This document shows positions 13,528 through 56,895 of a stretch of DNA of 64,000 bases, in pieces. Below the pieces are notes generated by a model. It made no database searches, was not told where the DNA came from, and saw nothing but the letters and a program-made list of their open reading frames with translations. Source of the stretch: Halovivax limisalsi (lineage in GTDB: Archaea > Halobacteriota > Halobacteria > Halobacteriales > Natrialbaceae). The position numbers and the translations under genes were made by a program. Numbering within the stretch: the stretch's first letter is position 1; every line of letters starts with the position of its first letter. The DNA is taken from assembly GCF_023093535.1 (NCBI RefSeq), contig NZ_CP095757.1, positions 3,534,001-3,598,000 on the forward strand, in the 5' to 3' direction.

Positions 13528-13648
13528 CGGCGCGCTCCGCGCGCCGTTTCACCGCGAGCGCGTTTGCGCTCGCGGCCTTTTTCATCGACGTTTTTTGCCG
13601 GGGGTCGAGGCCGCCTTCGGCGGCCGACGCCCCCGGTAAAAAAGGTCG
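13528..13648 (-). terminator. Three-hairpin 3' element/terminator behind aEF-2
   Basis: Reading in the direction of aEF-2 transcription, the stop codon is followed by a T6 tract, a long GC hairpin (13598-13635, arms GGGGG..GCCGCC/GGCGGC..CCCCC), an A6 tract and the core CGTCGATGAAAAAG. Then comes a perfect 10-bp stem (13552-13561/13566-13575) and a perfect 8-bp stem (13528-13535/13539-13546). T tracts terminate archaeal transcription, so the proximal part is probably the aEF-2 terminator. A very similar arrangement follows the L10e gene near 53.8 kb, suggesting a repeated extragenic element. Confidence 0.6.
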
Positions 13649-15835
13649 TTAGAAGTAATCGACGCTCGGCGGGAGTTCGAGCTTCATGCCCTTGCGTTCG
13701 CGGATCTCCATGATCTTATCACGCTGGAGCGAGTCGGCCATGAACTCGAAGCCGGCGTTCTCGGTGTTCCAGGAGGCCCGTCCCTCGGTCGCCGAGCGGA
13801 TGTCGCTGGCGAAGCCGATCATCTCGTCGACGGGGGCGATGCCCTCGACGACCATGAGGTCGCCTTCCTGGTACATGTCGTCGACGCGGCCGCGCCGACC
13901 CTGGATCTCGCCGGAGGCGGCGCCCATGTGGTCGTTGGGAACGTCGATGCGGACGTCCTGCATGGGCTCTTTCATGGCGATGTGGGCGTCGATCAGCGCC
14001 TTGTGGACGGCCTCGCGGGTCGCCGGGATGACCTGCGCCGGGCCGCGGTGGATGGTGTCCTCGTGGAGCTTCGCGTCGTGCAGGCGAATCAGGGTGCCCT
14101 GGACGGGTTCGTTTGCGAGCGGACCGTTGTCGAGGGCCTCCTCGAGCCCCTCGACGAACAGCTCCATCGTCTCGTTGAGATGCTGAATCCCCTTCGTCTC
14201 GTCGAGCAGGATGTTCGCGCCGTGGATCTGCTCGACGTTCTGGGAGTCGTCCTTGTCCATGCCGGCCTCCTGCAGGGCCTCGCGGCGCTCGAGTTCGGGC
14301 ATGTCCATCGAGGCCTCGCCGCGTTTGAGCGTCTCGACCAGATCGTCCGAGAGGGGTTCGGCGGAGATGTAAAAGCGGTTGTGCCGGTTGGGCGAGATAC
14401 CTTCGACGGTGTCGGAGGCGCGCTGGACGGCCTCGCGGTAGACGACGATCGGTTCGCCGGTGTTGACCGGAATGCCCTGGTTCTTCTCGATCCGCTGAGT
14501 CTGGACTTCGAGGTGGAGTTCACCTTGGCCGGAGATGAGGTGTTCGCCGGTGTCCTCGTTGATCTCGATCTGGATCGTGGGGTCTTCCTTCGAGACCTGC
14601 CGGAGCGTCTCGATGAGCTTCGGGAGGTCGTCCATCGTCTGGGCCTCGACGGACTTCGTGATGACGGGTTCGGAGATGTGCTCGATGGACTCGAACGGCG
14701 TCATCTCGACGGAAGAGACGGTGGATCCGGCGATGGCGTCGCGCAGGCCGGTGACGGCGGCGATGTTGCCGGCCGGAACCTGCTCGACCTCCTCGCGCTC
14801 ACCGCCCATGTAGATGCCGACGCTCTGGACGCGGTTCTTGCCCGCCGTTCCGGAGACGTAGAGCTCCTGGCCCTTCTCGAGGGTGCCCGAGAAGACGCGG
14901 CCCGAGGCGACCTCGCCCGCGTGCGGGTCCATCGCGATGTCGGTGACCATCAGCACGACCTCGCCGCTCTCGTCGACGAGCCGCATCGTCTCGGCGAGTT
15001 CGGAGTCGGCGTCGCCGCGCCAGATGCGCGGGATACGCATCGGCTGGGCGTCGACCGGGTTCGGGAAGTGCTCGCAGACCATGTCGAGCACGACGTCCGA
15101 CAGCGGCGTTCGCTCGTGGAGCTCCTGGCGCTCGTCGTTGCGTTCGAGTTCCATGATGTCGCCGAAGTCCATGCCGGTGCGCTGCATCGAGGGCATGGAG
15201 ACGCCCCACTTGTAGAGCGCGGAGCCGAAGCCGACGGTGCCGTCCTCGACGGAGACGGTCCAGTCCTCGATGTCGTCCATGTCCTCGGTCATGCCGCGGA
15301 TGAGTTCGTTGACGTCGCGGATGACCGAGAGCAGGCGCTCCTGCATCTCCTCGGGACCCTCCTGGAGCTCCGAGATGAGGCGGTCGACCTTGTTGATGAA
15401 CAGGGTCGGTTTGACGCCCTCGCGCAGCGCCTGGCGCAGGACGGTCTCGGTCTGGGGCATCGCGCCCTCGACGGCGTCGACGACGACGAGCGCGCCGTCG
15501 ACGGCGCGCATCGCGCGGGTGACGTCGCCGCCGAAGTCGACGTGGCCCGGCGTGTCGATGAGGTTGATGAGGTGGTTCGTGCCCTCGTACTCGTGGGTCA
15601 TCGAGACGTTCGCCGCGTCGATGGTGATGCCTCGTTCCTGTTCGTCCTCCTCGGTGTCCATCGCGAGCTGTTCGCCGGCGGTCTCGTCGGAGATCATGCC
15701 GGCCCCCGCGAGGAGGTTGTCCGAGAGTGTGGTCTTTCCGTGGTCGACGTGAGCGGCGATGGCGATGTTCCGGATGTTCTCCGGTTCGTCCATCAGCCGT
15801 TCACACTCCTGTACGATCTTCTTGCGTCGGCCCAT
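13649..15835 (-). CDS. fusA: Translation elongation factor aEF-2
   Basis: A 728-residue protein, the usual haloarchaeal length. The GTPase motifs are intact: AHVDHGKTT (P loop), ERGITIDAA (switch I), DTPGHVDF (G3) and NKVDR (G4). Domain IV carries the diphthamide region ending IHRGPAQ, with the modified histidine. It drives ribosomal translocation. The start [23 protein letters not shown] is the conserved archaeal N-terminus; the long in-frame upstream extension is non-homologous. In many haloarchaea this gene lies close to rps7; here about 8.7 kb separates them. Confidence 0.98.
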
Positions 15836-15875
15836 ATACACCCTCGTACCGGTAGCGGGGTCAAAAGGGTGCTGT

Positions 15876-15909
15876 TTCGCATCTGGCGTTTCGTATCGCC
15901 AGATGCGAA
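15876..15909. promoter_or_regulatory. Perfect 13-bp inverted repeat upstream of aEF-2
   Basis: TTCGCATCTGGCG and its exact reverse complement flank an 8-base loop, 41-74 bases before the aEF-2 start codon. It lies in the divergent gap with the DUF5781-type gene. It is long enough to be unlikely by chance and could be an operator, a leader RNA hairpin or the terminator-like end of an upstream transcript. Confidence 0.5.
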
Positions 15910-16127
15910 GCTCGTCACGGGTGAAACGAAGTGACGGCGTTTCGCGTGGGGCACGGATCGACCCCAGTTCGGGTTCTACGCGTCGAACGGCCAAGTTTGC
16001 GTGCGTGGGAGGCGCGCACGGAACCCTCGCGACCGCAACCGACCGATCCGTCGCCGTGCGTGCTTCGCTCTCACCAGCCGGACGCGCCACAACGCTCATG
16101 GTCCTTCCTCCCGTGATATCTCTACTC

Positions 16128-16877
16128 ATGGAACTACGCGTACGGGGTCCGGGCCCGGCGGCCCCGTTTCTCGGCGCTCGCGACCTGTTCGAGACCGAGC
16201 GGGATCTCTCGCTGCCCGTCGAGGTCCACCTCCGGGACGACCCGGACGAACGGACCTGGGCGGGTCACTACGACGATCGTCACGTGCTGAACATCTCGCG
16301 ACAGGCCGCCAACTCGGCGATGGCGCGCGAACTCGCCCTCCACGAGTTCGCCCACATGGCCCGCTACGAGGAGGACCACCCCTCGCACGTCCAGTCGACC
16401 GAGGAAGCCCTCTACCTCGCGCTAACCGGCCGGGACGTCGAGCGACGGGAGCTGGCCCACTGTTATCAGATCGCCAATCACATGAAAGACATCTACGCCG
16501 ACGACATCACGCTCTCGGTCGGGCCGGGCGAGAAACTGCTCTCGTACCTGGAGTCGAGCCTGGCGACGGCGGTCGCGGATCGACCGGCGCCGCCCCGGCC
16601 CGGCTTCCAGCGGATCGGCGCCGGCGCCGACCCGGAGATCACGGCCGTCAACGCGGCGTTCGCGCTCGCCCTGGCCGAACGGCACGACCTGATCGACGAC
16701 GACCACCGGCTGTACGACCTCGCCCACGCCGCCGCGATGGACGCGCCGGCGGTCGACCTCGAGTCGTTTCGGACCCGGTTTCGCGAGCTCGCGCACGAAC
16801 CCGACGCCAGCACGTATCGCCGACACCTCGTCGAGGCTACGCGTTCGTACGCCGCCGGCGGTCCGGCCGCGGAGTGA
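16128..16877 (+). CDS. DUF5781-type protein with HEFAH zinc-peptidase-like motif
   Basis: A 249-residue soluble protein. [20 protein letters not shown] (about residues 66-85) contains an HExxH-type motif (HEFAH) followed by acidic residues, suggesting a gluzincin-like metallopeptidase fold; activity is not established. The later region is helical. I recognise it as a conserved haloarchaeal family (DUF5781, tentative number) that usually sits beside aEF-2, as here, divergently. An in-frame ATG ten codons upstream is possible, but the family similarity starts at MELRVRGPG. Confidence 0.75.
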
Positions 16878-34839: not shown

Positions 34840-34912
34840 GCCCGGGTGGTGTAGTGGCCCATCATACAACCCTGTCACGGTTGTGACGCGGGTTCAAATC
34901 CCGCCTCGGGCG
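34840..34912 (+). tRNA. tRNA-Asp (GTC)
   Basis: A 73-base cloverleaf without intron. The acceptor arms GCCCGGG and CTCGGGC pair (one G-T), the anticodon stem CAACC/GGTTG encloses CTGTCAC with anticodon GTC, the T arm is CGGGT TCAAATC CCG-like, and the discriminator is G. A TTATACAT box lies about 30 bases upstream. Its last 22 bases recur twice downstream, so the gene has served as an integration site. Confidence 0.95.
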
Positions 34913-53449: not shown

Positions 53450-53811
53450 GGTCAGCGGTGGATCGATCGCGTCAGAGTGAGTACGAAGCGGCCGACAAAG
53501 AAGGCCCCGATGAACGCCTGCAGGCTTCCGAGTAACCGGAACGTCCGCGTACCCGCCACCGCCCGAACTCGTCATCCCCATCGAAGATGACCACCAAAGC
53601 CACCGCGAAGATGGTCGCGAAAGCCACCGATCGGAATAAAGCGTCCGAACGACGGCCGCGAGCGCGTGATCGCGCCAGCGATCCGCGCGACCCGGGGGAG
53701 GGCAGGGCTCGCCGACGGGTATCGCACCGCGAGGGAGTCCGCGTGCGGACTCGCGAGCGGGCCGACGACCGATGTGAAGCGCGCAACGCGCGCTGAACGG
53801 AGGGAGGAGTG
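53450..53811. other. Intergenic stretch with GC hairpins
   Basis: No supported gene. It holds a perfect 8-bp stem (GAGTCCGC/GCGGACTC, 53735-53752) and a 7-bp stem (AGCGCGC/GCGCGCT, near 53777-53793). They occupy the same relative position as the two distal stems behind aEF-2, and belong to the element continued by the next entry. Confidence 0.55.
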
Positions 53812-53874
53812 CTTTTCATCGAAGTTTTTCCGAGTGGGGTCGCGAAGCGACCCCACGCAGAGAAAAAGTTCGGT
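53812..53874 (-). terminator. Hairpin 3' element/terminator behind L10e, copy of the aEF-2 element
   Basis: In the direction of L10e transcription: a T5 tract, a perfect 10-bp stem with three-base loop (GTGGGGTCGC/GCGACCCCAC, 53834-53856), an A5 tract and the core CTTCGATGAAAAG. The order T tract, hairpin, A tract, core and two further hairpins is the same as behind aEF-2 near 13.6 kb. The proximal T tract is a likely terminator. Confidence 0.65.
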
Positions 53875-54405
53875 CTACGAGATGAGCTGCTGCTCGCCCT
53901 TCTCGACGTCGATCGTACACGGCGGCGTGATCTTGTTGTACGCGCGGCGCATGGCTTCTTTGGCGAAGCCGGCGTCGTCGACGTCGCACCAGATGGTGAA
54001 GATGCGGTCGCCGCGGTCGATGCGGGCGGCGGTGCCGACGATCTTCCCGAAGGACTGGCGCATCCCGTCGGAGACGCGGTCCGCGCCCGCCCCGGTCGCC
54101 TGTTTGTTCTCCCGGATGACCTGGTGGGGGAACTTCCGGAGGATCATCTTGTAGTTGCCCTCGCCGGCGTTCTTGATCATGTGGCGGTTGGCCGAGAGGC
54201 GCGACGCCTCCAGGCTGCCGTGGCGGATCTGGACCGCCTCGTCGGTGACGAGGCTGATCTGGACGGGGTAGTCGTCGGGTTCGGCGGTGATGTCGCCCAT
54301 CTTGTGCTGTGCGATCTTCGAACCCGGGATGCCGGTGATGTACTCGCGTCGCGTGTACGCCGGCTTGTCGATGTCCCGGTACATGGAGGCGGGTTTCTCT
54401 GACAT
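53875..54405 (-). CDS. rpl10e: 50S ribosomal protein L10e/uL16
   Basis: A 176-residue archaeal uL16 (L10e). Conserved blocks are [88 protein letters not shown] and [18 protein letters not shown]. It helps form the tRNA accommodation site near the peptidyl transferase centre. It is transcribed alone here, with the hairpin element after its TAG stop. Confidence 0.97.
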
Positions 54406-56822: not shown

Positions 56823-56895
56823 GTCCGGGTGCGAAAATCGAATCCGCGTCTCAGCCTCCACAAGGCTGAAGGATAACCATTACCCCAACCCGGAC
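56823..56895 (-). tRNA. tRNA-His (GTG)
   Basis: A 73-base cloverleaf on the minus strand, counting G at position -1. The acceptor pairs TCCGGGT with ACCCGGA, and G-1 pairs with C73, the hallmark of tRNA-His. The anticodon stem CAGCC/GGCTG encloses TTGTGGA with anticodon GTG, and the T arm GCGGA/TTCGC encloses TTCGATT. No intron. No downstream copy of its 3' end was seen. Confidence 0.93.

Follow-up and report, generated by a model that had tools for sequence, protein, structure and literature searches.

A dispersed palindromic unit at haloarchaeal gene ends as a candidate two-way terminator

What is the array of hairpins that begins directly behind the stop codon of a haloarchaeal elongation factor gene, and does it serve the gene, the surrounding DNA or only its own spread? 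We examined this question in a stretch of 64,000 nucleotides (the window, C1:3534001-3598000) taken from a single-contig 3.89-Mb haloarchaeal genome, starting from a first-pass annotation based on the letters of the DNA. Our reading, which we hold to be probable, is that the element is a dispersed, REP-like palindromic unit of haloarchaea that serves as a two-way terminator and insulator at the ends of transcription units.

Anatomy and covariation of the element

The hairpin element lies at 13528-13648 on the minus strand, at the place given in the first-pass annotation, directly 3' of the aEF-2 gene (13649..16129, minus strand, stop codon 13649-13651). The 826-aa product of this gene was identified by its Pfam EF-G domains GTP_EFTU, EFG_III, EFG_IV and EFG_C. 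Behind the stop codon, a T tract, a GC hairpin, an A tract, the core and two GC hairpins follow each other in the order previously described; in gene direction, the sequence reads C-GAC-C-TTTTTT, hairpin, AAAAAA-C-GTC-GATGAAAAAG, hairpin, hairpin. The GAC (13645..13647, minus strand), one nucleotide past the stop codon, and its partner GTC (13587..13589, minus strand) form a clamp that covaries in other copies. Next comes the T6 tract of the gene strand (13638..13643, minus strand), the putative termination point of the aEF-2 mRNA, then a GC hairpin of variable sequence (P1, 13597..13637, minus strand) set between the T and A tracts, and then the A6 tract, which is a T6 tract on the plus strand (13591..13596) and would offer a second U tract to transcription from the left side. 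The core CTTTTTCATCGACGTTTTTT (13577..13596, plus strand) is composed of T5C, an 8-nt spacer and T6, and bears the GATGAAAAAG-type tag on the gene strand. Two nucleotides before its plus-strand T5 stands hairpin P2 (CCGCGAGCGC..GCGCTCGCGG, 13552..13575, plus strand), and hairpin P3 (CGGCGCGC..GCGCGCCG, 13528..13546, without strand assignment) was delimited by folding. The general architecture in gene direction is thus a 3-nt clamp, C, T4-6, a GC hairpin, A4-6, C, the complementary clamp, GATGAAAA and more hairpins, while the non-gene strand reads U5-CAUCGAAG-U5, that is, two U5 tracts 8 nt apart.

For the whole 121-nt element, the fold energy is -82.8 kcal/mol in the gene strand and -88.0 kcal/mol in the opposite strand, with z values of -8.2 and -9.0 against dinucleotide shuffles, none of 200 being as good. 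The near-copy that the first-pass annotation had seen behind the gene for ribosomal protein L10e was located at 53813..53871 (minus strand), 3 nt past the stop codon. It has the same order of parts as the aEF-2 copy, with GAAC-T5 and A5-CTTC, and reads GAAC-T5-hairpin-A5-CTTCGATGAAAA, of which the hairpin part was folded; its 3' part, a CACTCCTCCCTCC stretch with two hairpins, extends over 53725..53812 (minus strand, ends counted by hand). Pfam confirmed the identity of the L10e gene (53875..54405, minus strand; Ribosomal_L16, 'L16p/L10e', E 2e-28, obtained through the same stretch in locus L031). Over both strands of the two window copies, z ranged from -5.3 to -9.0.

The proposal of a structure-conserved repeat, with stems that vary in sequence and keep their form, was borne out by copy searches and by covariation. 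Among 14 ungapped sequences of one subtype, 96.3% of the cells were paired, with 23 two-sided changes and a single one-sided change, and none of 500 shuffles matched the covariation score. Sixteen ungapped sequences of another subtype (alignment A4, which omits two of the 18 sequences of its length, L078 and L097, as belonging to a different subtype) had 97.9% of cells paired with 20 two-sided changes and no one-sided change; again, 0 of 500 shuffles matched the covariation score, 22 of 500 matched the count of pairs with a two-sided change, and 416 of 500 matched that of further pair types. The first-pass annotation had not foreseen the covarying 3-bp clamp that closes the T and A tracts, nor the double T tract on the opposite strand. 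Although the clamp bases vary among copies, the triplet that precedes the C-T tract is complementary to the triplet that follows the A tract and its C. In 20 relaxed matches, hand-picked from the listed places for variety of tag, the clamp was fully paired in register in 11 (GAC/GTC, AAC/GTT, AAA/TTT, CAT/ATG, GAT/ATC, CAC/GTG), fully paired with a shift of one in five (CCA/TGG four times and CGA/TCG, as read from the printed sequences) and incompletely paired in four; 44 of the 60 clamp bases paired in register, compared with 28.8 in shuffles, and none of 20,000 shuffles reached as high. Behind the aEF-2 genes of five congeneric genomes, no two P1 hairpins are alike (those of G000, the genome of the window, and G002 resemble each other); the clamp, tracts and form are kept, and the last 200 residues of aEF-2 are 96-100% identical.

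The two strands of the hairpin are unequal. In 135 short hairpins, 2690 Watson-Crick cells were accompanied by wobbles that number 21 when the gene strand is read and 33 when the non-gene strand is read, a difference too small to assign the strand from wobble pairs. Mismatches on the gene strand were pyrimidine-pyrimidine in 231 cases and purine-purine in five (a constant C-C excluded); the non-gene strand thus bears purine-purine mismatches, G-A where the gene strand has C-U. The non-gene strand also folds better, on average by 4.8 kcal/mol in P1 and by 5.6 in the 110 nt downstream (n = 144), and its mean advantage in P1 is positive in every gene context. One copy, at L135:7340-7401, has its inner hairpin in reverse orientation between the T and A tracts and shows the opposite mismatch polarity as a result, which points to an inversion between arms of the palindrome. 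The scarcity of wobbles and of one-sided changes is unlike selection on one RNA strand and fits a need on both strands or upkeep at the DNA level.

Copies in haloarchaea and placement at gene ends

A genome search with CTTTTTCATCGACGTTTTTT found 13 places at up to two mismatches and 16 at up to three, with none in the control, and the commoner core TTTTTCATCGAAGTTTTT found 25 places at up to three mismatches, with one in the control. The lack of further copies, named in the first-pass annotation as one part of the outcome that would speak against its proposal, is therefore not what the genome holds. A T4-6 tract, preceded by GAAC, GACC or AAAC, stands before the hairpin in 22 of these 25 copies, which had been found by the core alone; the three others (L032, L033 and L041) do not have this sequence before the hairpin and have a decayed look. 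The motif CGAACTTTT occurs 34 times in the genome and not in the control. Two copies in this genome (L003/L018 and L006/L022) carry a further CGAACTTTT before their first T tract, so that their gene strand has a double T tract as well.

The element is widespread among haloarchaea. The core was present at up to one mismatch in 26 of 61 genomes (that of the window included; control 0), the strict pattern GAACTTTTN{20,50}AAAACTTCGATGAAAA in 51 of 292 genomes and 16 of 77 genera of the class (no control match seen), and a relaxed pattern in which only CTTTT, AAAAC, GA and AAAA are fixed in 60 of 116 genomes and 25 of 45 genera of the class (a single control match), the control columns of all three counts being judged by eye. 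At least 120 stretches of the named collection contain the strict pattern; since this exact pattern specifies T tract, A tract and tag, the invariance of these parts is built into the set. The 80 that were named came from Natrialbaceae genera, Natronomonas, Halorussus and metagenome-assembled genomes. Independent evidence is provided by the set found by the core only, by the aEF-2 loci found by protein and by the relaxed pattern, in which CTTTT and AAAA are still fixed. The tag exists in dialects that follow lineage (CTTCGATG, CGTCGATG, CGTTGATG, CCTGGACT and CCTGGAGG). The strict pattern was not found in viral contigs, and we rejected a virus-borne origin on this ground. The 3' end of aEF-2 carries the element in all five genomes of the genus. 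Elsewhere in the family, 16 of 17 readable aEF-2 loci were without the element and one (G021) had a related form, and among seven loci from other families the form was clear in G041 and partial in G049, all as judged by eye, with one further locus unreadable. Its rarity behind aEF-2 outside the genus means that genes can be ended in several ways, of which the element is one.

To describe its placement, we used 170 elements with TTTT within 150 nt upstream and non-identical surroundings of 136 nt, a set that is phylogenetically non-independent; of these, 144 had a distinct P1 and entered the fold comparison, and 135 short ones entered the mismatch count. Gene positions were predicted by a codon model that had been trained on the window, and not taken from annotation. 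The left and right genes were convergent in 53 cases, both forward in 46, both reverse in 33 and divergent in 14, with a missing side or another arrangement in 24. Among gaps of 100-1500 nt, the 138 with an element comprised 52 convergent, 73 tandem and 13 divergent ones, and the 403 element-free gaps of the same loci comprised 50, 199 and 154, respectively. Convergent gaps are thus enriched (Fisher 8.5e-10) and divergent gaps depleted (1.6e-11) for the element, and a gene reads into the gap in 125 of the 138 element gaps and in 249 of the 403 element-free ones. When the left gene reads in, its stop codon lies 1-7 nt from the element in 63 of 91 cases, including 16 of 17 loci in the G-numbered genomes of the genus and 47 of 74 elsewhere, where named Halovivax records are included. 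Of the 44 left genes that read away, 26 have their start codon 31-53 nt off, which places the end of the element at the beginning of the promoter. Distances to genes on the right side are broadly spread. Copies between divergent genes number 13-14, about a tenth, with clear cases at L076, L093, L077 and L103.

Ten host proteins, aEF-2 and nine left neighbours, were identified by Pfam: EF-2, L10e, a TCP-1/cpn60 chaperonin (thermosome), a TFIIS-type zinc protein (TFS), glutamate dehydrogenase, Rad51/RadA, an FAD oxidoreductase, an AAA ATPase, an acyl-CoA dehydrogenase and eIF-1A. HMG-CoA synthase, phosphotransacetylase and PAPS reductase are among the other hosts. Judging from their identity, the genes for EF-2, L10e, the thermosome, TFS, glutamate dehydrogenase and eIF-1A look like highly expressed genes. 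The commonest families among 150 left neighbours were GNAT (five) and Usp, eIF-1A and TFIIS (four each), with 150 of 151 proteins used, neighbours scoring below 15 or shorter than 180 nt dropped and long proteins trimmed to their last 350 residues; on the right side, the commonest was Peptidase_M29 (8 of 130). In L047, L064, L082, L117 and L186, the element follows a conserved left-neighbour protein of about 197 aa that ends in DATEGMETDVEF or nearly so, and the one copy scanned (L047) had no Pfam match.

Several loci bear on how copies arise and rearrange. The element occurs in tandem in L044 and at G122:C1:374023-374239, G084:C1:2763332-2763673 and G093:C21:14584-14788. The repeated unit of L044 seems to take in the last bases of the adjacent gene, which its tail suggests is probably that of an M29 aminopeptidase, as in L045. 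A single element in L055 is flanked by such a tail on either side. The copies L002 and L003 (G000:C1:120269-121119) point towards each other across less than 800 bp and are 95.8% identical over 120 nt; one of them sits behind a Rad51/radA gene. The phosphotransacetylase gene (pta) has the element at its 3' flank in the window's genome; the congeners G001-G004 (L228-L231) have another array of GC palindromes there, GAGCGGGGAACGGAGTGACCCGCGAGTAGCG-like, which makes the 3' end of pta an apparent hot spot of palindromic repeats.

Termination, self-copying and structure as competing explanations

The two-way terminator reading builds on what is known of archaeal transcript ends. In Haloferax, intergenic transcripts are reported to end at T stretches, which form a T-stretch motif, and a reporter with T5C showed 95% termination (PMC7237163). 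Efficient binding of aCPSF1 in Methanococcus maripaludis is reported to require at least two U4 tracts, and termination was highest at terminators with two U4 tracts (PMC8716108). The nuclease aCPSF1 (TIGR03675, above cut-off) is encoded in all seven genomes examined. Together with T tracts that mark gene ends, these findings lead us to read the element as a two-way terminator. A U4-7 tract at or near the gene end, as in archaeal U-tract terminators, is present here (22 of 25 copies; 63 of 91 stop spacings). Among element-free genes, T4 occurs on the sense strand within 100 nt of the gene end in 119 of 374, A4 in 61 of 374 and T4 within the last 97 coding bases in 15 of 374; the same three counts within the window are 5, 2 and 0 of 33. 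The first-pass annotation had wavered between a terminator and an extragenic repeat, and the element appears to be both; it is from the placement at gene ends and the T tracts on both strands that we infer termination.

On the gene strand, the mRNA would be released at the T4-6 tract a few nucleotides past the stop codon. On the other strand, transcription from a neighbour or of spurious origin would meet the GC hairpins and then the double U tract (U5, 8 nt, U5), the form best bound by the termination nuclease aCPSF1/FttA in Methanococcus, and its RNA would end there before reaching the gene or its promoter. The clamped hairpin would keep the opposed T tracts together as one palindromic unit and may stop or protect read-through RNA. 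The unit may spread by intragenomic copying and then be retained at useful gene ends. As described, U-tract termination has no need of a clamp or hairpin, so the strict upkeep of both must be due to something else, possibly pairing of read-through RNA, a cruciform in the DNA or a role as the copied unit itself. This covariation of parts that a U-tract terminator does not require counts against the terminator reading. So do the 13-14 copies in divergent gaps, where neither gene needs a terminator, the 16 of 17 readable family genomes outside the genus with no element behind aEF-2, and the gene-strand hairpin behind the T tract, an order opposite to that of bacterial terminators. Directly before the first T tract, the gene strand has a perfect stem of at least 7 bp in 1 of 143 cases, and the other strand has one in 45 of 167, compared with 3.3% in shuffles.

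The placement bias itself would also be expected of a neutral repeat purged from genes and promoters. Such a selfish or neutral extragenic palindromic repeat, of the REP, PATE or SMR kind, would copy itself, tolerate gene ends as sites and use the T tracts as its recognition sequence; we regard this as rather unlikely on balance. It would account for two copies in the genome that are 91% alike over 306 bp and are both absent at the orthologous sites of four of four congeners, an absence from which it follows that they were either gained in this genome or lost in the others. The left and right ends of the element differ, as seen by eye in this pair. Tandem copies and the inverted inner hairpin of L135 point the same way, the one-polarity arm mismatches (231 versus 5 on the gene strand) are expected if one folded strand is recognised, and palindromic repeats without a transposase, the PATEs and SMRs, are described for Haloquadratum (PMC3119063). 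Against self-copying alone, no match to the Y1 transposase (PF01797) was obtained in G000, G004, G041 or G052, the latter three of which have many copies; the profile matched in 41 of the 61 genomes searched. No transposase appeared among the commonest 25 of 158 and the commonest 25 of 130 neighbour families, and viral contigs did not carry the strict pattern. The 1-7 nt stop spacing and the aEF-2 copies in five of five genomes of the genus suggest retention for use. We rejected mobilisation of the IS200/IS605 or REP-RAYT type, the genome of the window having no Y1 transposase match; our guess is that copying proceeds by gene conversion or recombination.

The strong covariation, the low folding z values on both strands of the two window copies and the better folding of the non-gene strand, which would form G-A mismatches opposite the C-U sites, could instead indicate an element acting at the RNA level, with hairpins in a 3' UTR or an antisense RNA that protect the transcript or bind a protein. 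This we consider improbable, since wobbles are few (21 and 33 beside 2690 Watson-Crick cells) and 43 two-sided changes stand against a single one-sided change. Moreover, the hairpin would lie outside the mRNA if the T tract ends it, and the P1 advantage of the non-gene strand holds even where both flanking genes are forward and no neighbour is read in that direction. The near-perfect Watson-Crick palindromes with few wobbles and the almost exclusively two-sided changes would suit a DNA cruciform or a protein-binding palindrome of chromatin or topology with no role in termination, which is very improbable given that it leaves the T4-6 and A4-6 tracts, the stop-codon spacing and the orientation at gene ends unexplained. 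We found nothing in support of the small RNA that the first-pass annotation had also proposed, with no Rfam family at cut-off and a promoter scan that covers bacterial types only. At the gathering score, Rfam matched two tRNAs in the window (34840-34912, plus strand, and 56823-56894, minus strand) and none on the element; at E up to 5, four element loci gave nothing at cut-off, Sso133 overlapping the L034 element at 20.1 bits versus the 44 needed. An independent small RNA or known RNA family was rejected on these results. A kink-turn or box C/D motif for the GATGA tag was dropped, as the sequence holds no three-base bulge beside G-A mismatches, as were an attC-like site and, by eye, a small ORF that copies with CACTCCTCC carry on their non-gene strand in varying lengths and frames.

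Relation to known systems and meaning of the element

Bacterial REP and BIME repeats are short imperfect palindromes that occur in many copies in convergent and tandem gaps, form serial hairpins and have a conserved adjoining tag. The element shares with them its many extragenic imperfect palindromes and conserved tag; unlike them, it has no Y1 (RAYT) transposase match in its own genome, and it adds T and A tracts, a clamp and a tight spacing past stop codons. With the PATEs and SMRs of Haloquadratum (PMC3119063), it shares the character of a transposase-free haloarchaeal palindromic repeat, but PATEs are related to transposons of the IS605 type, and the element showed no such link among the commonest neighbour families. 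A 2025 survey of REPs includes archaea, and its main text had no match to words starting with 'halo' (PMC12306157). Like archaeal U-tract terminators, the element has T4-6 right behind genes, a close pair of U4 tracts on the non-gene strand and a T5C resembling that of Haloferax (PMC7237163, PMC8716108). It differs from them in that its tracts are opposed on both strands and joined by a covarying clamped hairpin, and in that it is carried by a dispersed repeat with the conserved tag GATGAAAA.

Bacterial bidirectional intrinsic terminators have the order A tract, hairpin, T tract. The element resembles them in having a single palindrome between opposed T tracts, whereas its order on each strand is T tract, hairpin, A tract, with the T tract before the hairpin. 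A scan of 1.34 Mb, mostly loci chosen for the element, found the T-hairpin-A order in 84 core-bearing and six other places and the A-hairpin-T order in none. Inverted repeats are reported to be enriched behind stop codons, less so in archaea (PMC13155455). The titles and abstracts found on haloarchaeal repeats, archaeal and bidirectional terminators, structured RNAs, archaeal REP and Term-seq, a scope outside which many subscription papers fall, do not describe the element.

Tentatively, plug-in terminators of a family not described before may be common to haloarchaea. Each would be a clamped palindrome whose T tracts are opposed, and copying would place it at housekeeping gene ends with no need of the transposase known from REP elements. 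Lineages would diverge in dialect (GAA/TTC-GATG, GAC/GTC-GATG, CCA/TGG-ACT and CCA/TGG-AGG), and the hairpin would be renewed by two-sided changes at the DNA level. If true, terminator sequence would evolve by replacement of modules and not by point mutation. The two-sided changes also suggest the element as a model for the self-renewal of palindromes. Archaeal termination is usually described as requiring a U tract alone. The element makes a role of hairpins in this process testable, with the 25 places in one genome as a natural series of variants, and it could supply terminator parts for haloarchaeal genetics. A two-way element at gene ends that is widespread, conserved in structure and equipped with both a double U tract and a covarying clamp points to a built terminator module in haloarchaea.
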